NCBI GenBank assembly: GCA_016214345.1 | Contig: JACROR010000011.1 | Location: forward strand, 1-48,100 | Source of the DNA: Candidatus Niyogiibacteriota bacterium | GTDB taxonomy: Bacteria > Patescibacteriota > Minisyncoccia > JACROR01 | Reading direction: 5' to 3' | Length of the DNA stretch: 48,100 nucleotides | Shown here: positions 22,574-32,772 of the stretch, one piece after another | Layout of the letters: the number at the start of each line of letters is the position of its first letter | Position numbering within the stretch: position 1 is the first letter of the stretch | Made by a program: the position numbers and the translations under genes | Notes under the pieces: model-generated | What the model saw: the letters and a program-made list of their open reading frames with translations, nothing else | Told to the model about the DNA's origin: nothing | The model's database searches: none

Positions 22574-23869
22574 TTATTTATTAATATAACGGATTAGCTT
22601 CTCTGTCGCCACGCGTTCCTGTTTGCCGCTGTCGCGGTCGCGCACCGTGACCGTTCCATCTTCCAGCGTGTCAAAATCAACGGTTACGCAATAAGGCGTT
22701 CCGATCTCATCCTGCCGCCTGTAACGTTTTCCTATGTTGCCATTATCGTCCCACATTATATTAGGAATCTCTTTTTTCAAGTCCCGATATATCTCCCGCG
22801 CCCTTCCCACCAATTCCGGTTTATTTTTAAGCAAAGGAAAAACTGCCGCTTTCACGGGCGCAATCTTGGGATCCAATTGCATGAGCTCCCTTTTTTCTCC
22901 GTTCATCTCATCTTCGGAGTAAGCGTCGCAAAGCGCGGCAAGCACCGTGCGATCAAGTCCGAAAGACGGCTCTATGCAATGCGGCACGAACCTCTCCTTC
23001 GCCGCTTCGTCCAAATAATCAAGCTTTATCTTGCTATGTTCGGCGTGGCGCGACAAATCGTAATCGGTGCGATATGCCAATCCGTAAAGCTCTTTTCTGC
23101 CAAAAGGAAAATCATACTCTATGTCTATGGTGCGTTTTGAATAAAACGCACGATCCGCTTCCGGCACTTCAAGCTCATGCACGTTATCGGCGCCGATCCC
23201 GACATCTTTGATAAAAGCGTGCATCTCGTTGCGAAAATGCTCAAAAGTTTCCGCCCAATCCTTAGGCGCGATAAAATATTCTATCTCCATCTGTTCAAAC
23301 TCACGCGCGCGAAAAGTAAAATCACGCGGCGCGATCTCGTTGCGAAACGCTTTCCCGATCTGCGCCATGCCGAAAGGCAACTTGGGATGAAAAGAATCAA
23401 TAATATTTTTATAATTCACGAACATTCCCTGGGCCGTCTCCGGACGCAAATAAGAAATCGTGCTTTCATCCTGCGTAGCGCCTACATGCGTAGTAAACAT
23501 CATGTTGAACTGGCGCTCCTCGCCCAACTTACCGCCGCACTCCGGACATTTAGCGCGGTCATCCAGCTGATCCGCGCGGAAACGCTTCTTGCAGCCGGAG
23601 CACTCCACCAGCGGATCAGAAAATCCCGAAGCATGGCCCGTGGCCTGCCAGACTTTCTGATTCATAAGAATCGCCGCGTCTACCCCGTACATATCTTCCC
23701 TGTCCTCCACAAAACGCTTCCACCACAAATCGCGAATATTGTTTTTAAGCGCCACCCCCAAAGGGCCGTAATCCCAGGTGCCGGCAAGACCGCCGTAAAT
23801 TTCCGAACCCGAATAAATAAATCCGCGCCGCTTCGCCAATGATATTATTTTTTCCATCTTATTATCCAT
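22574..23869 (-). CDS. glyS: Glycine--tRNA ligase (alpha2, class II)
   Basis: It charges tRNA-Gly. About 431 residues; the eukaryote/archaea/Mycoplasma-type dimeric GlyRS, not the alpha2beta2 GlyQS. IISLAKRRGFIYSGSEIYGGLAGTWDYGP at the N-terminus, the zinc ribbon CSGCKKRFRADQLDDRAKCPECG, RPETAQGMFVNY (motif 2 region) and PSFGLDRTVLAAL (motif 3) are present. The frame is open upstream to 23890, but the ATGs at 23869 and 23857 give family-like starts; 23869 is preferred. Confidence 0.95.
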   Translation of the reverse strand: MDNKMEKIISLAKRRGFIYSGSEIYGGLAGTWDYGPLGVALKNNIRDLWWKRFVEDREDMYGVDAAILMNQKVWQATGHASGFSDPLVECSGCKKRFRADQLDDRAKCPECGGKLGEERQFNMMFTTHVGATQDESTISYLRPETAQGMFVNYKNIIDSFHPKLPFGMAQIGKAFRNEIAPRDFTFRAREFEQMEIEYFIAPKDWAETFEHFRNEMHAFIKDVGIGADNVHELEVPEADRAFYSKRTIDIEYDFPFGRKELYGLAYRTDYDLSRHAEHSKIKLDYLDEAAKERFVPHCIEPSFGLDRTVLAALCDAYSEDEMNGEKRELMQLDPKIAPVKAAVFPLLKNKPELVGRAREIYRDLKKEIPNIMWDDNGNIGKRYRRQDEIGTPYCVTVDFDTLEDGTVTVRDRDSGKQERVATEKLIRYINK

Positions 23870-23895
23870 AAGCCATTTACGCGCCACCAACTAAA

Positions 23896-25803
23896 CTATT
23901 GACCATTCTGAACCTGATATTCTCCGGACTTTATTTGCGTATCCGAGAAAAGCTGCGTGGTAAGCGCGCCCTTGGCATCCCGCAAAACCACCCCCGTAAA
24001 AGTGTCGTCTCCTTCGGCTATGGCATCCGATATCAATACCGGCATTCCCCCGACTTGCGAAAGAGAAGGAATTAACCCCAGCTGAAAAGCAATCTCACGC
24101 GCCGGCCTTAAAATGCCGGTGCCCGCCTTAAGCTCTCCCACCTCCCACACGATCTTGCCGCTAAGCTCGTCAAAAGCGATCTTTTCATCAGACGGCAGAG
24201 AACGCCCCAGCCAACTCATATAAGAAGGCAGGGAAGCGTAAACTTTAACATTTTTCAGATCATTAGACCAATTGGCAAGCGACCATACTAAGGTATAGGT
24301 AGTTTTTTGTCCGACTTGCGGCGGTAATGGCCCGTCATTCGGCATCAGAGTGGAATAAAAATATCCCTGACTGGATAATTGCAAATTGGAAGAAATTTTT
24401 ACTTCTTTAAAAAGCCGTCCGTCTATATCCACGCCGTCAAATCCCTGCGGCCGCTCTCCGGCGTACATATGAGCCTGAAGGCGAGCTGAGAAATTAATAT
24501 CCTCCGCTTGTTTTATAGGCAGACTTTTCAAAATATCCAGACTAAACGATACGTCTCCCTCTTGACCGGCGGCAAGATAAGCAAAAATCGGATTGGAAGA
24601 CGAATTCCAAATCATAGTATTGTCGCTGCCCCTGTAAAATCCTTGACCCGTGTAAACGGTTTTCTTGTCCCATCCGCCGCCTTCAATGCCAATTTCCAAA
24701 ACGACATTTTTTACGGTAACCGGCAAATTATTTTTCCAATGAACCTTAACCTCCAAACGATCTCCCGCTTTGGCGATATACTCATCTCGGTTGTTAATAG
24801 TCGCCGATAGATCCAAGAACGGCTTCCTTAAAGTGGTCGTGATCACTCCCGCTCCGTAAACCACCAAGTGGCCGTCCTTGTCCATGGCGCCAACAGATAA
24901 TTTAAACAACTTGCTCTCCAAATCATTTCCATCTATCTTGCCCTTAACGCGTATAATCCTTTGCTGTTGAGGGGCGAGATCTTTTACTTCCCAGGTATTA
25001 TTGGAAAAGGATGGCAAAGGATCGGCGGATATGAATTCAAAACCTTGCGGATATATCGCCTCCAAAGTCAGTCCTTGTATGACTTCCGCTGAATTGGAAT
25101 TATACGTTATATCCAATAATATCTCCTGCCCTATGTTGCTCTGTTCAGGAACATTCAAAGAAATACCGATAGGTGAAGTAATCAATTTAAAAGAATAGGG
25201 CGCGTTTTTGGCAAGAATGGCATTAGAGCCCTGCGCGCGATACTCCAAAATCGCGGCCGCTTCTTCAACGCTTCCCTGTTCGCCAAAAACCGTGGCTTCA
25301 AAAACTTCTTCCACGTATTCACCTGCCGCGACATGCCCTAAATAACGCTTCTCGGTCAAAGGAGACGTCAGGTCGCCTTTTTTATTGACTGGCCGGGAAT
25401 TATCCGGATAATTGAAGGTGATTTCCACGCCCTCCAACGCTATATCATTTTTATTTTGCATAATCACGTGCCATGAGGCTTTTTCCCCTCCATTTATGCT
25501 TTGCGGCCCAGCCACGTTGAAACTCAAATTGTCGGACGACACGCCGCCAAACCATCCAAACAAAAAACCCAACGCGGCAAAAAGCACTACTGCCACGAAT
25601 AAAGACAGTCCCACGATCAATTTAGTCATATGCGGCATTTTGGGAGATGCGGGCGCGGCAATGCCTTTCCATTCCAAAGGAGCCTCTTCCGTCTCTCTCT
25701 TATAAGCCCTGACCTCTTCCAGCGTGTCCTTGGCAAATCTTCGCTTCAGATCTTTGCTTTGACCGTATAGCTTCCTTTTTAATTTTTCCAAACCATCCGC
25801 CAT
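23896..25803 (-). CDS. Membrane-anchored surface protein with repeated beta-sandwich domains
   Basis: A 635-residue protein if started at the ATG at 25803, which avoids overlap with recO. The first 60 residues are basic and charged, followed by one hydrophobic segment (about 61-86, KLIVGLSLFVAVVLFAAL) and then about 550 residues of extracellular character. These have repeated motifs of the type found in DUF11/CARDB domains: GGEKASWHVIMQNKN, NGLEAIYP, RLEVKVHWKNNLPVTVKNV and LVWSLANWSNDLKNVKVYASLPSYM. A type II topology with a cytoplasmic basic N-terminus is inferred. Adhesion or attachment is possible, but no specific function can be named. Confidence 0.85.
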   Translation of the reverse strand: MADGLEKLKRKLYGQSKDLKRRFAKDTLEEVRAYKRETEEAPLEWKGIAAPASPKMPHMTKLIVGLSLFVAVVLFAALGFLFGWFGGVSSDNLSFNVAGPQSINGGEKASWHVIMQNKNDIALEGVEITFNYPDNSRPVNKKGDLTSPLTEKRYLGHVAAGEYVEEVFEATVFGEQGSVEEAAAILEYRAQGSNAILAKNAPYSFKLITSPIGISLNVPEQSNIGQEILLDITYNSNSAEVIQGLTLEAIYPQGFEFISADPLPSFSNNTWEVKDLAPQQQRIIRVKGKIDGNDLESKLFKLSVGAMDKDGHLVVYGAGVITTTLRKPFLDLSATINNRDEYIAKAGDRLEVKVHWKNNLPVTVKNVVLEIGIEGGGWDKKTVYTGQGFYRGSDNTMIWNSSSNPIFAYLAAGQEGDVSFSLDILKSLPIKQAEDINFSARLQAHMYAGERPQGFDGVDIDGRLFKEVKISSNLQLSSQGYFYSTLMPNDGPLPPQVGQKTTYTLVWSLANWSNDLKNVKVYASLPSYMSWLGRSLPSDEKIAFDELSGKIVWEVGELKAGTGILRPAREIAFQLGLIPSLSQVGGMPVLISDAIAEGDDTFTGVVLRDAKGALTTQLFSDTQIKSGEYQVQNGQ

Positions 25804-25819
25804 AATCTCTATTATACAT

Positions 25820-26404
25820 CTATAAGCCGCTCGCATAAATGCCGTCATCAAAGAGTTTTGAAATTTGAAACACTCCGACCGCCGAAACAAAAACATCACT
25901 CCAACCGCCAGTATCAACGACCTCCTTTAATTCCGACCGTAGCGCGCCATCTATATATCCCAGATGAGCCAGCAAGCGAACACCGAAAACTTTTTCCGCC
26001 GTAGCGGCAGAAGAAAATACTCCGCCTTTTCGCGCGAAATCCATAAAACCGCGCAACAGATCCCATATGCCATCATCGCGCTCGCTCCCTTGCACCATTC
26101 TATCCACTAAACGCAGAGCGCTGGACATCGCATGCCGCGCCGCGAGATCCGGTGCGCCGGCAAAAAAATTCAAACGCTCTTCAATATCCGTAAGGCGCAT
26201 ATATTCGGAATTTCCCGTGAACATGAGGCGTGCCTCCGAGCCGGTGTTTATATGGCCCTTTAATTTGGACTGCGCAGTGCGCACGCTCTTTGCCACCAAA
26301 CTTATCTTGCCGAAATCTTTGGTGAACAAATTTATGAATTTATCCGCCTCACCCATGTCGTAATGCGATAAAATTATTCCTTCGGTTTTATGGATCGCCG
26401 CCAT
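25820..26404 (-). CDS. recO: DNA repair protein RecO (short)
   Basis: RecO anneals single strands and helps load RecA in recombinational repair. The 194-residue product has the N-terminal OB fold (HKTEGIILSHYDMGEADKFINLFTKDFGKISLVAKSVRTAQSKLKGHI), the family's strongest signature. It continues with an alpha-helical region. It ends without the usual four-cysteine zinc motif, so it is a compact form. It starts 3 bases before the ileS stop and lies directly upstream of the surface protein gene. Confidence 0.9.
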   Translation of the reverse strand: MAAIHKTEGIILSHYDMGEADKFINLFTKDFGKISLVAKSVRTAQSKLKGHINTGSEARLMFTGNSEYMRLTDIEERLNFFAGAPDLAARHAMSSALRLVDRMVQGSERDDGIWDLLRGFMDFARKGGVFSSAATAEKVFGVRLLAHLGYIDGALRSELKEVVDTGGWSDVFVSAVGVFQISKLFDDGIYASGL

Positions 26405-26407
26405 GAA

Positions 26408-29400
26408 TTATTTTTTTATGCCAATGGTAACCACGCCGTAATCCAACGCGAGCTCCTCCTTAAAAAAGTCTTCCGGGATCGCGTTCAAATTTATCTCCCG
26501 CGCCGAAACGGCAACCATCAGATCATTTTTATATTTTTCCAAAAGAGAGCGCGCCTCACCCTCCGCGACAAACGCCAAGTCTACTTTGTCCTGCGGCAAT
26601 AAATTCATATTTTTCCGCATATCCTGAATTTTTCGCGCCAATTCGCGCAGCATTCCCTCTTCTTTAAGTTCTTGAGAAATGACGAGATCCAATTCCACGT
26701 CGCCAACAATGCTTTCATCAAAAATAATTTCTTTAACATTCAATTCATCTTTCAAAAGACGCGCAAGTTTCTCATCAGGCTCTAGGTTTTGGTTTTTAGT
26801 TTTTAGTTTTAGCGCGGCAAGCGGCTGGCGCACCTTGATGCCGGCTTTGGCGCGCGCCTCCAACCCCAGAGAAACCAAACGGCGAACCTCTTGCATGAAT
26901 CTGACGAGCGCCATCTCTGCCTCATCGGGTCGTGGCAACTCCGGATAATCTTCCAAATGCACGCTTTCTTTATCGCCGCCCAACAACTGATAAATTTTCT
27001 CGGACACAAAAGGAGCGAACGGCGCGGTTAGTTTAGCGAACTGAAGGAAAACATAACGGGTCGTGGCGACTGCCGACGCCTTATCCTCACCTTCTTCTTT
27101 AAAACGTTCGCGCGATCTTCGCAAATACCAGGTTGACAGATCATCCACGAATTCGCCCACAGGCCTTACCGCCCTGTCTAACTCATAACTATCCATGCTT
27201 GCCGACACTTCGGACAAAACTTCTTTCAATCTTGCCACGATCCATTTATCCAGCATATTCTCACTTTTTGGAGGCTTAGCCTCCAAATCGGTATATACGC
27301 CCTCCGGCGCGTACATCTCATAAAAATTATAAACATTGGTCAGGCGCAAAATGATCTTTTTATTGATCTCGTCCACGCCTTTCTCGGAAAAATTCAAACT
27401 CTCGGCGCGCACCACAGGAGACGACAATAAATACAAACGCAGCGCGTCCGCTCCGTATTTTTCCACCACCTCCATCGGATCGGGATAATTTTTCAACCGC
27501 TTGGACATTTTTTGTCCGTCCTCCGCCAAAATAATTCCGCTGGTTATGACATTTTTAAACGCAGGCTTGCCGAAAAGCGCCGTGGAAAGCACCAAAAGAT
27601 TATAAAACCACCCGCGCGTCTGATCCACCGCTTCGGCGATGAATTCCGCGGGAAAATTTTTCTCAAACAATTCCTTATTCTCAAAAGGATAATGAATCTG
27701 CCCATAAGGCATGGAGCCGGACTCAAACCAGCAATCAAAAACTTCCGGCACGCGCGAGACTTCTCCGCCGCATGAACAGGGCAATTTAATTTCATCAATG
27801 TAGGGACGATGAAAATCCAACTCAAAATTAGCGTTGTGTGGCAACGGATAAAAATCTAGCGCCTGCACTTCGGCGTAATGTATAAAATTGTCTTTGTCTT
27901 CCTTCATGGCTAATGAGCGAGGCGTATCCGCGCCCTCCGCTCCGGCAGAAAGCATCCAAATCGGATATTCGTGGCTCACAATCAAAATATTTTTGCCGCG
28001 ATATTTTTTATCAATGTCATACAAAAATCCTGCCATGCGATTTTTAAGTTCCGTCAGATTTTCACCCTCCGGAGGATTTTTATAAAATTTCTCCTCGCGC
28101 GATGAAAAATATTTATGATAATTCGCCGCGTCCTGCCTGTCAAAAATTCCTACATTATATTCGCGCGCGCGCGGATCGGCTATAACAGCATTTTGCGCGA
28201 CACCCAGCTCCTTTGCCACAATCTCCGCGGTTTCTTGAGTACGCCTAAAATCCGAATGAATAATCAGGTTAACGCCTTTTCCTTTGAGCGCCGCGGCCGA
28301 TTTTTTGGCTTCGGCGCGCCCCTTTTCCGTAAGCGCGTAATGATTATTTTCAATATTTGAATTAACTATGTTTTTAACATTATTTTCCGATTCGCCATGC
28401 CGCATCACGAAATATTTATTACCAGACAAAGCGGACGATGCGCGCAGGTCTTCGCGCGATCCCAAAACTTTTACAGCCTCGCACTTACCGCACCGCCACA
28501 CGGGCAACGGCGCGCCCCAAAAACGCGAACGGGAGATGGCCCAATCGCGCGCGCCCGTGAGCCATTTGCCGAAACGCCCGTCTTTAATATGCCCCGGCAC
28601 CCAGTTTATTTTTTGATTATTATCCAGCAGTCCACCCTTGCCATCTTTAATGGAGGTTACTTTTACGAACCACGAAGAAGCCGCGTAATTCAGTAGCGGC
28701 GTGTCGCATCTCCAGCAATGCGGATACGAGTGCGTGATCTTTTTCTTATCAAAAAAATTGCCGTGCTCTTGCAAGTATTTTATTACGGCGATGTCCGCGG
28801 ACAGCCGTTCTTTTTCATCTTCGGACTTCGGTTTTACGTACATTCCCGCGAAATCCGTTACCTCCGGCTTGAATTTTCCGTCCATGCTCACATGCTGGAT
28901 AAAAGGCAAATTTTCTTTTTGTCCCAAATTCATGTCGTCCTCGCCGAACGCCGGCGCGATATGCACCACGCCGGCGCCTTCCTCCGTGGTTACAAAATCC
29001 GCGCCGTAAATTTTATAGGCATTTTCCCACTTATCCGTCTCTTCCCGGTCCGAGGCCGGTCCGCCTTGGGCGGAAAAAATTGGTTGATATTTTTTACCGA
29101 CTAAATTACTGCCTTTAAACTCAGAAATTATTTCATACGGCTCATCTTTTAATACTTCAGCAATTCTCTCTTTCGCAAAAATATAAAATTCCGGAATTTT
29201 TAATTTTTCGTTTTTAATTTTTAGCTTACAATAAACAATTTCGTTATTTATTGCGAGCGCCACATTCCCCGGCAGAGTCCACGGCGTTGTCGTCCACGCC
29301 AAAATATAAGTATTTTCATCAGTCGTAAAATCTCCAATCTTCTGTCCCGCTTCCAATTTAAACTTCACCGTCACCGACAGATCGGTAATATCCTTGTATC

Positions 29401-29986
29401 CTTGCGCCACTTCAAAATTGGCAAGCGTGGTCTCACAGCGCGGGCAGATGTGCATCGGCTTGTACCCTTCATATATAAGCCCCTTGTCGTAGAGCGTTTT
29501 GAAAACCCACCATACCGATTCGGTATAGGTGGCGTCCATGGTCTTGTAGTCGCTTTCCATGTCTACAAAGCGTCCCACGCGCGGAATTATTTTTTTCCAA
29601 TCATCCGAGTAACGAAGCACGCTTTTTTTCGCCGCTTCGTTAAATTTCGCGATGCCGAATTTTTCTATGTCTTTTTTGTGTTCCAACCCCAGATCTTTTT
29701 CGATCAAATTCTCCACTGGCAATCCATGACAGTCCCAACCCCAGCGGCGCGGAACCCTGTACCCTTTCATGGTGCGATAGCGCGGCACCGCGTCTTTCAA
29801 AATACTCTGCAAAATATGCCCGTAATGCGGCAAGCCCGTGGCAAAAGGCGGGCCGTCGTAAAATACAAAATCTCCGCGCGGCGCGGCTTTCTCAAGCGAT
29901 CGTTCAAAAATGCGATTTTCCTGCCAAAACCGCAAAACCTCCTCCTCGCCCCATTTATTTTTGCCGGATTTTTCTTCTTCGGACAT
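26408..29986 (-). CDS. ileS: Isoleucine--tRNA ligase with inserted histidine-phosphatase domain
   Basis: IleRS charges tRNA-Ile and edits valine. The 1192-residue protein has PPFATGLPHYGHIL (HIGH motif, residues 46-59), CPRC, the CP1 editing domain (WTTTPWTLPGN, 231-241; GAGVVHIAPAFGEDD, 337-351), CWRC, the WGAPLPVWRC segment, the EVFDCWFESGSMPYGQ region (748-763) and the KMSKR loop (826-830). Between residues about 522 and 712 a complete histidine-phosphatase domain is inserted: VMRHGESENN (R529, H530, G531), SDFRRTQETA (R581/R582), REY (E609) and VSHEYPIW (H672). Two short A-rich micro-repeat peptides, CKLKIKNEKLKIPE (253-266) and LKLKTKNQNLEP (about 1059-1070), also interrupt it. No C-terminal zinc domain is seen. 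Confidence 0.95.
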   Translation of the reverse strand: MSEEEKSGKNKWGEEEVLRFWQENRIFERSLEKAAPRGDFVFYDGPPFATGLPHYGHILQSILKDAVPRYRTMKGYRVPRRWGWDCHGLPVENLIEKDLGLEHKKDIEKFGIAKFNEAAKKSVLRYSDDWKKIIPRVGRFVDMESDYKTMDATYTESVWWVFKTLYDKGLIYEGYKPMHICPRCETTLANFEVAQGYKDITDLSVTVKFKLEAGQKIGDFTTDENTYILAWTTTPWTLPGNVALAINNEIVYCKLKIKNEKLKIPEFYIFAKERIAEVLKDEPYEIISEFKGSNLVGKKYQPIFSAQGGPASDREETDKWENAYKIYGADFVTTEEGAGVVHIAPAFGEDDMNLGQKENLPFIQHVSMDGKFKPEVTDFAGMYVKPKSEDEKERLSADIAVIKYLQEHGNFFDKKKITHSYPHCWRCDTPLLNYAASSWFVKVTSIKDGKGGLLDNNQKINWVPGHIKDGRFGKWLTGARDWAISRSRFWGAPLPVWRCGKCEAVKVLGSREDLRASSALSGNKYFVMRHGESENNVKNIVNSNIENNHYALTEKGRAEAKKSAAALKGKGVNLIIHSDFRRTQETAEIVAKELGVAQNAVIADPRAREYNVGIFDRQDAANYHKYFSSREEKFYKNPPEGENLTELKNRMAGFLYDIDKKYRGKNILIVSHEYPIWMLSAGAEGADTPRSLAMKEDKDNFIHYAEVQALDFYPLPHNANFELDFHRPYIDEIKLPCSCGGEVSRVPEVFDCWFESGSMPYGQIHYPFENKELFEKNFPAEFIAEAVDQTRGWFYNLLVLSTALFGKPAFKNVITSGIILAEDGQKMSKRLKNYPDPMEVVEKYGADALRLYLLSSPVVRAESLNFSEKGVDEINKKIILRLTNVYNFYEMYAPEGVYTDLEAKPPKSENMLDKWIVARLKEVLSEVSASMDSYELDRAVRPVGEFVDDLSTWYLRRSRERFKEEGEDKASAVATTRYVFLQFAKLTAPFAPFVSEKIYQLLGGDKESVHLEDYPELPRPDEAEMALVRFMQEVRRLVSLGLEARAKAGIKVRQPLAALKLKTKNQNLEPDEKLARLLKDELNVKEIIFDESIVGDVELDLVISQELKEEGMLRELARKIQDMRKNMNLLPQDKVDLAFVAEGEARSLLEKYKNDLMVAVSAREINLNAIPEDFFKEELALDYGVVTIGIKK

Positions 29987-30004
29987 GAATCTATTGTAAT
30001 AAAA

Positions 30005-30028
30005 AAAGCGCCTTTATTAAAGCGCTTT
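30005..30028 (-). terminator. Terminator after argS
   Basis: On the minus strand AAAGCGC pairs with GCGCTTT around a short AT-rich loop, followed by TTTTTTTATT. It separates argS from ileS, so ileS should have its own promoter. Confidence 0.7.
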
Positions 30029-30044
30029 CCATAATCAAATATTA

Positions 30045-31646
30045 TCACATTTTATCCGGCGCGTTGATGCCCAGAAGGCCCAAAACGGTTTTCAGGATCT
30101 TTTGCGTTTCGCTGATCAAATAAATCCTCGCCGCCTCGTTCTCTCCGGAATTCAGCACCCGCACATCGCGGTAAAATCCGCTGAAAGCGTAAGCCAATTC
30201 GTAGGCGTAAGAGGTCAGGCGATGCACCTGATAATCCGCGGCCGTATCTTCCACAATCTCCGAAAATCTCGCCAATTTTTTGATCAAGGCAAGTTCCGAT
30301 GGATGTTGCAACCCCACGATAGAAATTCGTTTCTTTAATTTCGCCCCGCCTTTAGCATTCTTCAAAATACTGCTTATCCTCGCGTGGGCATATTGCACGT
30401 AATAAACCGGATTTTCCGCCGACTGCTTTTTGGCAAGCTCCAGATCAAAATCCATGTGGGTATTTAACGCCTTGTCCAAGAAAAACCACCGCAGCGCGTC
30501 AATGCCAACTTCCCGCAGCAGGTCTTCCAAATAAATCACGTTACCCGCGCGTTTGGAAAACTTTTTGCGCAATGCGCCAACTTTTAGCGTTACTAATTGC
30601 GAAATTAAAATATTCAGGTCGCCCTTCCAACCGAGCATTTTTTTCGTCGCCTCCATTCTTTTGACATGACCATGATGATCCGCGCCCCAGATGTCAATCA
30701 CTTTTTTGTATCCTCGTTTGAATTTATCCGCGTGATAAGTGATGTCCGACAAAAAATAGGAATATGATTTATCCGAGCGCACCACCACGCGATCCTCGTC
30801 GTCTCCGAACTCGGCGGTTTTCAGCCACATTGCTCCGTCTTTTTCATAAACCAGTTTTTCTTTTTGGAGCGACGTCAAAGTCTTTTCAAAAATTCCTTTG
30901 GCGCGCAAAGCGCCCTCTTCCGAATACCATTTTCCGAATTTTATTCCCAAATCAGCCTCAATGAATTTTTTATTATCTTTCTGAATCTCTTCCGCAAGCA
31001 AAAATCCCGCCTCGCCATATAGATTAGTTTGTAGTTTGTAGTCCGCCGGCTGGCGGATAGGTTGTAGGTTTTTGAGTTTCGCGCTTTGCGCTTTACGCTT
31101 TACGCTCAAATAATCCGTCAGATATTTCGTGCCCTCGCCCAGCGCGGTTTTACCCAGCTCTTTTATCTGCGCGGACTCTTTGGAATCATTGATGAAATAT
31201 TCCCGATCCACGCGGCAACCCGCGTAAACAAACACGCGGGAGAGCGCGTCGCCGTAAAAAGCGCCTCGGCCGTGGCCGATATGAAGTTTGCCGGTCGGAT
31301 TGGCGGAAATGAATTCCAAATTAATCTTTCCGGCTTTTTTGGGAAATTTTTTGCCTAAACTTTCAAATGCGCGCCGGAGCGCCGCGTGAGAAAGCCAAAA
31401 ATTCAGAAATCCGGGGCCCGCCACCTCCGTCTTCTCTACATATTCATTGAATCGCGCAGATCCACGCAATTTATCCGCGAGCTTTTGAGCTACTTCTTTG
31501 GGATTGCCCGTCCGCAAAACCAAAGCGGCGTTCGTGGCATAATCTCCGAACCGCTCTTCCGCCGCGACTTCAAAATTTATCTCTTTGCCATAAAGATTAA
31601 AAATCGCTTTTTTGAGTTCGGTTTTCAGAAAATCGCGCGTGGTCAT
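30045..31646 (-). CDS. argS: Arginine--tRNA ligase
   Basis: ArgRS charges tRNA-Arg (CCG copies are encoded at 8.8 kb). The frame is open to 31814, but the extra 56 residues are atypical and cross a terminator, so the ATG at 31646 (MTTRDFLKTELKK) is preferred; that gives 533 residues. EFISANPTGKLHIGHGRGAFYGD holds the HIGH motif, and DALRWFFLDKALNTHMDFDLELA and the DALR anticodon-binding domain close the protein. The KMSK motif is replaced by FSKRAGN, as in many ArgRS. A peptide encoded by a palindrome and micro-repeats (residues about 191-208, LKNLQPIRQPADYKLQTN) is inserted in the catalytic domain. Confidence 0.95.
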   Translation of the reverse strand: MTTRDFLKTELKKAIFNLYGKEINFEVAAEERFGDYATNAALVLRTGNPKEVAQKLADKLRGSARFNEYVEKTEVAGPGFLNFWLSHAALRRAFESLGKKFPKKAGKINLEFISANPTGKLHIGHGRGAFYGDALSRVFVYAGCRVDREYFINDSKESAQIKELGKTALGEGTKYLTDYLSVKRKAQSAKLKNLQPIRQPADYKLQTNLYGEAGFLLAEEIQKDNKKFIEADLGIKFGKWYSEEGALRAKGIFEKTLTSLQKEKLVYEKDGAMWLKTAEFGDDEDRVVVRSDKSYSYFLSDITYHADKFKRGYKKVIDIWGADHHGHVKRMEATKKMLGWKGDLNILISQLVTLKVGALRKKFSKRAGNVIYLEDLLREVGIDALRWFFLDKALNTHMDFDLELAKKQSAENPVYYVQYAHARISSILKNAKGGAKLKKRISIVGLQHPSELALIKKLARFSEIVEDTAADYQVHRLTSYAYELAYAFSGFYRDVRVLNSGENEAARIYLISETQKILKTVLGLLGINAPDKM

Positions 31647-31696
31647 AAATTCATTATCGTTTTGTTTACCGTATTTTGCAAACCTTACCAAAATAA

Positions 31697-31723
31697 AAGG
31701 CGCTCCGTTTAACGGAACGCCTT
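31697..31723 (-). terminator. Terminator after the 118-aa/29-aa mini-operon
   Basis: On the minus strand AAGGCGTTCCGTT pairs with AACGGAGCGCCTT (one mismatch) and is followed by TTATTTT. It ends the small operon before argS begins. Confidence 0.7.
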
Positions 31724-31756
31724 GATAGCTGGTCTTATTGCGCGCCCTTACTTCTC

Positions 31757-31846
31757 CTAAATATAAGGAAAAAGGAGCGCGAATAGGATAAGCAGGAAAC
31801 ACGCGATCATGCACAGATGAGCCAATTTTTCAAAAGCGTTGCGCAT
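31757..31846 (-). CDS. Small single-span membrane peptide (29 aa)
   Basis: A 29-residue frame, starting MRNAFEKLAHLCMIACFLLI and ending at 31757, preceded by AAGGAG 6 bases before the ATG. About 15 residues of Leu/Phe/Ile/Ala form one transmembrane span, with two basic residues at the N-terminus. The Shine-Dalgarno overlaps the stop codon of the 118-aa gene upstream, so translation is probably coupled. A terminator follows. The strong ribosome site and hydrophobic pattern argue for a real gene. Its role is unknown; small membrane modulator or toxin peptides are possibilities. Confidence 0.6.
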   Translation of the reverse strand: MRNAFEKLAHLCMIACFLLILFALLFPYI

Positions 31847-31857
31847 ACTCTTCTCCT

Positions 31858-32214
31858 TTAAATGTGGCGGATGGTTTGGCGGCGGTCGCAGAGCAATTTT
31901 TTCTCGCGGCCGCGCGGTCCATGAGATTCGTGAATCTTGTCGCCCTTCCGCACGATCACGCCGTGCATCCGGAATATCTGATGCCGCGGCTCAAAGGTCG
32001 GAACATTTTCCAGAGCGCTCTCCGCGATAACATGCTCCGATGCCCCGCTTTCCGCCGGCTTTTCTGCCGCAAGCACCGGCTCTTTCCGCCGTTCGCGCGG
32101 ATGATGATCGCTTTGCGCGGCAACCCGCGCGCGCTTCGCCTGCCGTTCCTCTTTGACGATCAGAAAATCGTCCAACGACCGGAAAAGGCGCCTATTCGAT
32201 ATTGGCCTTGCCAT
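31858..32214 (-). CDS. Hypothetical charged protein (118 aa), first gene of a mini-operon
   Basis: A very charged, Arg-rich, soluble product without recognisable motifs; the first 70 residues are rich in Arg and Glu and look helical or disordered, and the last third has KGDKIHESHGPRGREKK. GGAGG lies 4 bases before the ATG and a strong promoter is 45-75 bases upstream. It is followed by the 29-aa membrane peptide. It is divergent from smpB. Despite the lack of similarity, the promoter, ribosome site, coupled small gene and terminator make a well-formed transcription unit. The function cannot be stated. Confidence 0.65.
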   Translation of the reverse strand: MARPISNRRLFRSLDDFLIVKEERQAKRARVAAQSDHHPRERRKEPVLAAEKPAESGASEHVIAESALENVPTFEPRHQIFRMHGVIVRKGDKIHESHGPRGREKKLLCDRRQTIRHI

Positions 32215-32261
32215 AAAACCTCCAAAAATGTTGTAAAATAACCGTTTTTTACTTTAAAAAC

Positions 32262-32290
32262 AATATATCACTTTTTACCAGAAAAGTCAA
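32262..32290 (-). promoter_or_regulatory. Sigma-70-type promoter of the 118-aa/29-aa operon
   Basis: On the minus strand: TTGACT (32290-32285), 17 bases, TATATT (32267-32262), with an extended -10 TGA just before it. It matches the style of the promoter at 133-161 (same TTGACT and spacing). Confidence 0.65.
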
Positions 32291-32328
32291 TAGTTTAATA
32301 ACCTCCTGAAAATGAGTATTATTTCAAT

Positions 32329-32772
32329 ATGCCTACGCTGATACAAAACAAACGGGCGCATTTTGATTACGAGATCCTGGAAAAATTGGAAGCCGGTTTG
32401 GAATTGCGCGGCTTTGAAACCAAAGCGTTGAAAAACGGCATGGGAAGTCTGGTGGGTAGCCGCGTGCTTATCCGCGGCGGAGAGGCCTTTGTGGTCAATA
32501 TGGAAATAGCGCCCTACCAGCCGGCCAACGCGCCCAAAGATTACGACTCACGCGCTCCGCGGCGGCTGCTTTTACACAAAAAAGAAATAAGCTATCTGGA
32601 AGGCAAATCTCATGAGAAAGGCTTGACTTTGGTGCCAATTTCGTTGTATACTAAGGGCAATTTGATCAAGCTGGAATTCGGCGTGGGTCGCGGCAAGAAA
32701 AAATCCGACAAACGGGAAGCAATCCAAGAGCGTGAAACCAAACGCAAAATAGAGCGCACATTGAAATTGTAG
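32329..32772 (+). CDS. smpB: SsrA-binding protein SmpB
   Basis: SmpB binds tmRNA and positions it in stalled ribosomes for trans-translation. The 147-residue protein has the OB-type core (NKRAHFDYEILEKLEAGLELRGFETKALKNGMGSL) and the basic C-terminal tail (KREAIQERETKRKIERTLKL) that enters the decoding centre. TATTAT at 32317-32322 sits 6 bases upstream of the ATG with no Shine-Dalgarno, suggesting a leaderless transcript. The tmRNA gene lies 300 bases downstream, separated only by the GIY-YIG cassette, which starts 7 bases after the smpB stop. Confidence 0.95.
   Translation: MPTLIQNKRAHFDYEILEKLEAGLELRGFETKALKNGMGSLVGSRVLIRGGEAFVVNMEIAPYQPANAPKDYDSRAPRRLLLHKKEISYLEGKSHEKGLTLVPISLYTKGNLIKLEFGVGRGKKKSDKREAIQERETKRKIERTLKL

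Follow-up and report, generated by a model that had tools for sequence, protein, structure and literature searches.

A histidine phosphatase domain inserted into isoleucyl-tRNA synthetases of Patescibacteria and its possible role

The ileS gene and the domain within it

We analysed a stretch of 48,100 nucleotides from a Candidatus Niyogiibacteriota bacterium of the phylum Patescibacteriota (assembly GCA_016214345.1, contig JACROR010000011.1, positions 1 to 48,100), which is called the window in the following. Its ileS gene (26408..29986, minus strand) codes for a type-2-like isoleucyl-tRNA synthetase (IleRS) of 1192 amino acids, which carries within its body a histidine phosphatase (HP) domain of branch 1, spanning residues 521-715 (27842..28426). 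All features of the window given here and below lie on the minus strand. The preliminary description of this DNA had proposed a complete phosphatase domain at exactly these coordinates, placed where ordinary enzymes have a short linker and inside an otherwise intact synthetase, and all of this was borne out. The Pfam model His_Phos_1 (PF00300) matched residues 526-689 with an E value of 2e-30 and 106.4 bits (cut-off 21.7). Modelling the whole protein with AlphaFold2, using 63 related sequences, gave a predicted local distance difference test score (pLDDT) of 89.8 and a predicted template modelling score of 0.85; the HP domain reached a pLDDT of about 91-96 over most of its length in this model and 96.6 when modelled alone. 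A Foldseek comparison of the domain with structure 4ij6 (E 7.8e-14, template modelling (TM) score 0.79) confirmed the alpha/beta phosphoglycerate-mutase-like fold, and phosphatases of the PspA, GpgP, PhoE and CobC types were matched by fold. By profile, catalytic residues and fold, the insert is a branch-1 histidine phosphatase.

The residues R529-H530-G531, E609 and H672 were found at the positions assigned to them previously, and the motif SDFRRTQE supplies R582 as a further member of the catalytic set. R529 (28400..28402), the phosphate-pocket arginine of the RHG motif, and H530 (28397..28399), the predicted phosphohistidine nucleophile, are each conserved in 99% of the 149 fused HPs aligned, with alignment gaps in the remainder. 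The second phosphate-pocket arginine, R582 (28241..28243), and the second catalytic-pocket histidine, H672 (27971..27973), are present in 100% of them, and the predicted proton donor E609 (28160..28162) is glutamate in 93% and aspartate in 3%, the rest again being gaps. The full set (R529, H530, R582, E/D609, H672) was complete in all 142 assessable fused copies, as it was in 14 of 14 free HPs of the ileS family, in 7 of 7 checked HPs borne by valyl-tRNA synthetases (ValRS) and in both HPs of one tandem IleRS (see below), and apart from alignment gaps no loss was seen in any fused HP; among background HPs, the first arginine was lost in 4 of 17. In pairs in which HP and IleRS body have a common history, the ratio of non-synonymous to synonymous substitution rates (dN/dS) of the HP was about 0.04-0.15. 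The complete catalytic sets and this ratio support the earlier proposal that the intact catalytic set is under selection. The HP of the window is 72% identical to that of its nearest relative, compared with 66% over the whole protein. Because this set is conserved, the fused HP is very probably an active phosphatase.

The nearest solved relatives of the domain, by profile and fold, are the phosphoserine phosphatase PspA of Hydrogenobacter (4ij5) and PhoE of Bacillus stearothermophilus (1h2e), which have the same catalytic set. Both are free-standing enzymes and only about 20-24% identical to the HP by structure alignment, so that their substrate specificity is not transferable. Several narrower identities were rejected by their equivalog profiles: a glycolytic 2,3-bisphosphoglycerate-dependent phosphoglycerate mutase (dPGM_arch, 78.2 vs. 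225 bits; GpmB, 61.2 vs. 261 bits), PspA itself (NF045917, 51.5 vs. 350 bits) and CobC, whose score was far under the cut-off. Because the domain falls far below all of these cut-offs, no substrate can be assigned to it.

The synthetase around the domain passed the ileS equivalog model TIGR00392 with 881.9 bits (cut-off 621.4). It retains the HIGH motif as HYGH (residues 54-57, 29816..29827), the KMSKS motif as KMSKR (residues 826-830, 27497..27511) and the editing-domain motif TTTPWTLPGN (residues 232-241, 29264..29293). A fold search with the IleRS body returned the type 2 IleRS of Priestia megaterium (8c8v) as the top match (E 1.1e-87), and the enzyme of T. thermophilus (1ile) was matched with a TM score of 0.90 by target length; profiles of the MupA/MupB type gave about 774 bits. 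Since 8c8v outranks the type 1 enzyme 8c9e by both sequence and structure, the window protein is nearer to IleRS2 than to IleRS1. It shares with the eukaryote-like, mupirocin-resistant type 2 enzymes the whole body, the HIGH and KMSK motifs, the editing domain and the layout of the connective peptides CP1 to CP3, but it differs from the known ones in having about 195 phosphatase residues in place of a short CP3 linker.

The site of the insertion was defined by comparison with insert-free relatives, in which GSxEEL-xxLSGxxxxDLHRPYID is followed by CxxCGG and only about 20-45 residues occupy the site. In the fused proteins, the HP starts after GSxEEL and ends before DLHRPYID, between the two halves of a putative CP3 zinc ribbon, which are represented in the window by CGKC (residues 499-502, 28481..28492) upstream and CSCGG (residues 737-741, 27764..27778) downstream of the HP; zinc binding is predicted from these motifs. 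Upstream of the insertion lies the CP2-CP3 linker ARDWAISRSRFWG (residues 479-491, 28514..28552), which matches the linker ARDWNVSRNRYWG of yeast IleRS, where it helps to form and line the active-site cavity (PMC7955072). Going by the annotation of the yeast enzyme (PMC7955072), the HP is placed in the CP3 subdomain, just after this cavity-lining linker.

Distribution, free copies and exchange of the phosphatase

The fusion is far wider than the window alone and occurs in many of the tiny bacteria of the Parcubacteria type. Among 55 relatives, the fused gene was present in 37, an HP gene lying upstream of ileS in 3, and neither of these in at least 12. Class-wide, HP matches were obtained in 231 of 286 genomes, and the fusion itself, seen as an HP in a long open frame among the strong matches listed, was present in at least 138 of the 286. 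The insertion point is the same throughout the class, and other classes of the phylum contributed more than ten genomes whose IleRS has the HP at this very point. A scan of named genomes yielded 80 loci, whose HPs were all fused and of which 77 were distinct; the titles are mostly of the Parcubacteria type (Wolfe-, Nomura-, Zambryski-, Campbell-, Adler-, Giovannoni-, Taga-, Colwell- and Berkelbacteria), and two of the named contigs are 693 kb and 831 kb long. Kinship with these lineages would place the window genome among the Paceibacteria. A search of viral contigs found no protein related to the domain. The preliminary description had left an assembly artefact to be checked in nearby genomes. 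This explanation is refuted by the recurrence of the insertion in relatives, and an error of assembly or gene model has a practically negligible probability, given an open frame conserved at one site in hundreds of assemblies under purifying selection. The same fused IleRS as in Parcubacteria was also encountered on contig QYPD01000003, titled 'Spirochaetia bacterium', which may come from a mislabelled genome.

Beyond the features noted previously, we found an alternation of fused and free HPs between argS and ileS, losses and cassette exchange of the HP, versions in ValRS and in tandem, and the IleRS2-type host protein. Nine relatives contain a free HP gene of the ileS-HP family between argS and an insert-free ileS. 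All nine loci share the gene order smpB/argS-HP-ileS-recO-DUF11-proS, and several of the free genes overlap their neighbours by 1-4 bp in start-stop overlaps. In the window, ileS is likewise flanked by its conserved neighbours argS (30045..31814) upstream and recO (25820..26404) downstream, as identified by Pfam and synteny. The order smpB / argS-ileS-recO-DUF11-proS, found at 22574-32772 of the window, is conserved over much of the class and represents a useful synteny block. In genome G203, the order is argS-HP-recO-DUF11-proS-M16 and an HP-less ileS lies on another contig; the HP was kept at the locus after ileS had moved away. The genomes G132/G067 have a free HP elsewhere in the genome.

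The conserved order argS-HP-ileS-recO, together with these separated copies, bears on the main rival of the reading developed below, in which the HP serves the synthetase as a tethered accessory phosphatase. According to this rival, the gene of a housekeeping small-molecule phosphatase located between argS and ileS jumped into a permissive CP3 loop, and the fusion merely secures its expression in a small genome and is unrelated to charging. In addition to the synteny and the copies in G203 and G132/G067, it is favoured by the fact that the window genome has no histidine phosphatase besides the fused one, and that the ileS-linked HP is likewise the sole one in 24 of the 40 HP-bearing relatives. 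Two facts weaken it: an HP also occupies the homologous site of ValRS and is doubled in some IleRS, and after its loss several genomes have no histidine phosphatase at all, which would be odd for a housekeeping enzyme. We regard mere co-expression as possible, if rather doubtful.

The free genes also bear on a sensory role. The HP might bind or turn over a phosphorylated signal metabolite and tune IleRS allosterically, for which its CP3 position beside the cavity-lining linker and the confident joint modelling of both parts may speak. However, nine lineages have a free gene in place of the domain, so that intramolecular coupling is impossible in them, and the complete catalytic conservation suggests turnover rather than sensing. 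The related earlier suggestion that the HP reports on isoleucine charging gained nothing from our results, none of which shows such sensing, and a regulatory sensor appears improbable.

Traces of HP removal were recognized in two lineages. The insert-free IleRS of G004 keeps the linker that follows the HP in fused proteins (DKFSPKKL-KKGEHNWPYNKKGKLDLHRP, vs. DKFSPKKL-[HP]-GHNWPYNNEGDLDLHRP in G033 of the same family), and the insert-free IleRS of G026 likewise keeps it when compared with G115. These look like in-frame excisions of the HP. Such scars make two changes clearly recognizable as losses of a fused HP, and the other state changes give no direction. On the tree of the IleRS bodies, at least 16 switches between the fused, adjacent and absent states are required. 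The HP also moved between synthetase genes: the body of the IleRS encoded at locus L237 groups with L183 and L189, and its HP groups with L231. In approximately unbiased (AU) tests, the body clade was rejected on the HP data with p = 1.6e-57 and the reverse with p = 4e-5; these p-values are descriptive, as the groups were chosen after the discordance had been seen. The disagreement between both trees indicates that an HP cassette was exchanged between ileS genes.

In nine genomes, the ValRS also has an HP, inserted at the position homologous to that in IleRS. One of these, G147, has an HP-bearing ValRS (valS, 743.7 bits) alongside a fused IleRS, and the others comprise six genomes of the class and two of other classes. 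The nine HP-bearing ValRS loci are L258:2696-5422 (P0002), L269-L274, L283 and L284. Two HPs in tandem occur in three IleRS proteins, all belonging to family f149 (L259:3253-7638, 1462 aa; L285; L287). AU tests gave p = 0.12 for grouping the HPs of IleRS and ValRS together and p = 0.39 for a single clade of the IleRS family. Because both values are permissive, we do not claim convergence of the ValRS and IleRS HPs. The ValRS and tandem versions imply that the HP became paired with the isoleucine and valine synthetases on more than one occasion or passed from one of them to the other, and they show that it was repeatedly attracted to these enzymes.

The occurrence in both synthetases could also fit a role at RNA ends, with the HP stripping damaged tRNA of a terminal phosphate close to its acceptor end and so letting the CCA end be repaired; the location near the tRNA and the adenylate cavity (PMC7955072) would suit it as well. 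This idea is purely inferential. The nearest solved relatives of the HP are small-metabolite phosphatases, and we see no reason for a restriction of such repair to isoleucine and valine, which makes it very unlikely.

Possible function of the inserted phosphatase

We consider the HP as a phosphomonoesterase of the short PspA/PhoE/CobC type, which would work by way of a phosphohistidine at H530. Tethered to the class Ia synthetases of isoleucine and valine as an accessory phosphatase, it may hydrolyse a small phosphate ester that arises at the synthetase or interferes with it. Candidate substrates include a nucleotide product, such as AMP, and an inhibitor of the nucleotide type, each of which taken singly is rather doubtful. 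Tethering would secure equal expression and closeness, and a free, co-transcribed HP gene could do the same work. The preliminary description had also considered adenylate-derived phosphate. Histidine phosphatases cleave terminal phosphomonoesters, and a direct action on the adenylate is therefore chemically unlikely.

Several observations weigh against a service to the synthetase. The CP3 loop may simply be tolerant of inserts, and G203 and G132/G067 show that closeness of the HP to ileS is not required. Since some relatives have neither an insert nor an adjacent HP, the HP is dispensable, and several of these lack any histidine phosphatase at all. Charging does not need the HP, because it was lost without replacement, and tethering is optional, because free HP genes exist. 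The HP is best seen as a modular, dispensable, catalytically competent phosphatase that is repeatedly tied to isoleucine and valine synthetases. We still prefer the tethered accessory phosphatase, because its loss spares charging and its tethering is optional, yet the insertions recur in ValRS and in tandem. A real functional link between HP and synthetase seems rather probable, and for the specific reading of an accessory phosphatase serving the synthetase we see about even chances. The gain, loss, swapping and duplication of the HP resemble a resistance or quality-control module more than a metabolic enzyme. We tentatively suggest that the exchangeable phosphatase cassette which Patescibacteria have next to the synthetic site of IleRS and ValRS may represent a new class of synthetase-associated activity, which might protect or regulate charging, e.g., by breaking down inhibitors that carry phosphate or a nucleotide product with inhibitory action.

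The HP might instead replace a missing housekeeping enzyme, either an inorganic pyrophosphatase pulling the adenylation reaction or the glycolytic phosphoglycerate mutase. Pyrophosphate is a product of charging, and the family-I soluble pyrophosphatase is absent from 42 of the 55 relatives, including the window genome. However, the latter has a membrane pyrophosphatase and a cofactor-independent phosphoglycerate mutase, and the soluble enzyme coexists with the fusion in G003, G006, G011, G015, G035, G039, G043 and G046. Both tested pyrophosphatase families are absent in 5 of 40 HP-bearing relatives vs. 5 of 12 insert-free ones without a linked HP, so the HP is not enriched where they are missing and does not compensate for them; the fusion also occurs both with and without the cofactor-independent mutase. 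For these reasons, a replacement of either enzyme is extremely improbable. The genomes G007, G009, G013, G018, G033, G004, G024, G030, G048 and G054 have neither the family-I soluble nor the membrane pyrophosphatase, these being the two families searched.

Comparison with known architectures

The preliminary description knew of no described function for such a fusion, and our literature searches gave none. Among open-licence papers, we found none linking IleRS with a histidine phosphatase, and, judging from titles and abstracts, searches combining aminoacyl-tRNA synthetases with histidine phosphatases or with the candidate phyla radiation returned nothing on this subject. Phosphatases are not mentioned anywhere in a survey of domain insertions from 2026 (PMC13114784). 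The IleRS-HP architecture is apparently undescribed, and the nearest curated oddity is the IleRS with a GNAT domain (NF040702, ileS_w_GNAT), which likewise bears an enzyme domain of unrelated chemistry but has an N-acetyltransferase instead of the HP. The window protein is not a member of this family (321 vs. 1999 bits), and a Pfam scan of it gave no acetyltransferase domain. The bifunctional RNase H/acid phosphatases of the PRK07238 type also join a branch-1 HP to a nucleic-acid enzyme, but as an end-to-end fusion with another partner, and the window protein scores far under their cut-off (65.8 vs. 326 bits).

The evidence is strong for the architecture and weak for the mechanism. Added enzyme domains on aminoacyl-tRNA synthetases often expose unsuspected links of translation to metabolism or chemical defence, and here one of the largest bacterial groups, also among the least cultured, bears a conserved second active site within an essential enzyme, repeatedly in the two branched-chain synthetases. 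Relatives in which the HP is fused, operon-linked or absent represent a natural experiment, in which native enzymes with and without the HP are directly comparable, as well as a clear case of domain insertion, excision and exchange inside an essential gene.

An additional enlargement was observed at locus L102 (G179), which codes for an IleRS of 1352 amino acids containing, besides the HP, about 170 extra residues around positions 257-430.
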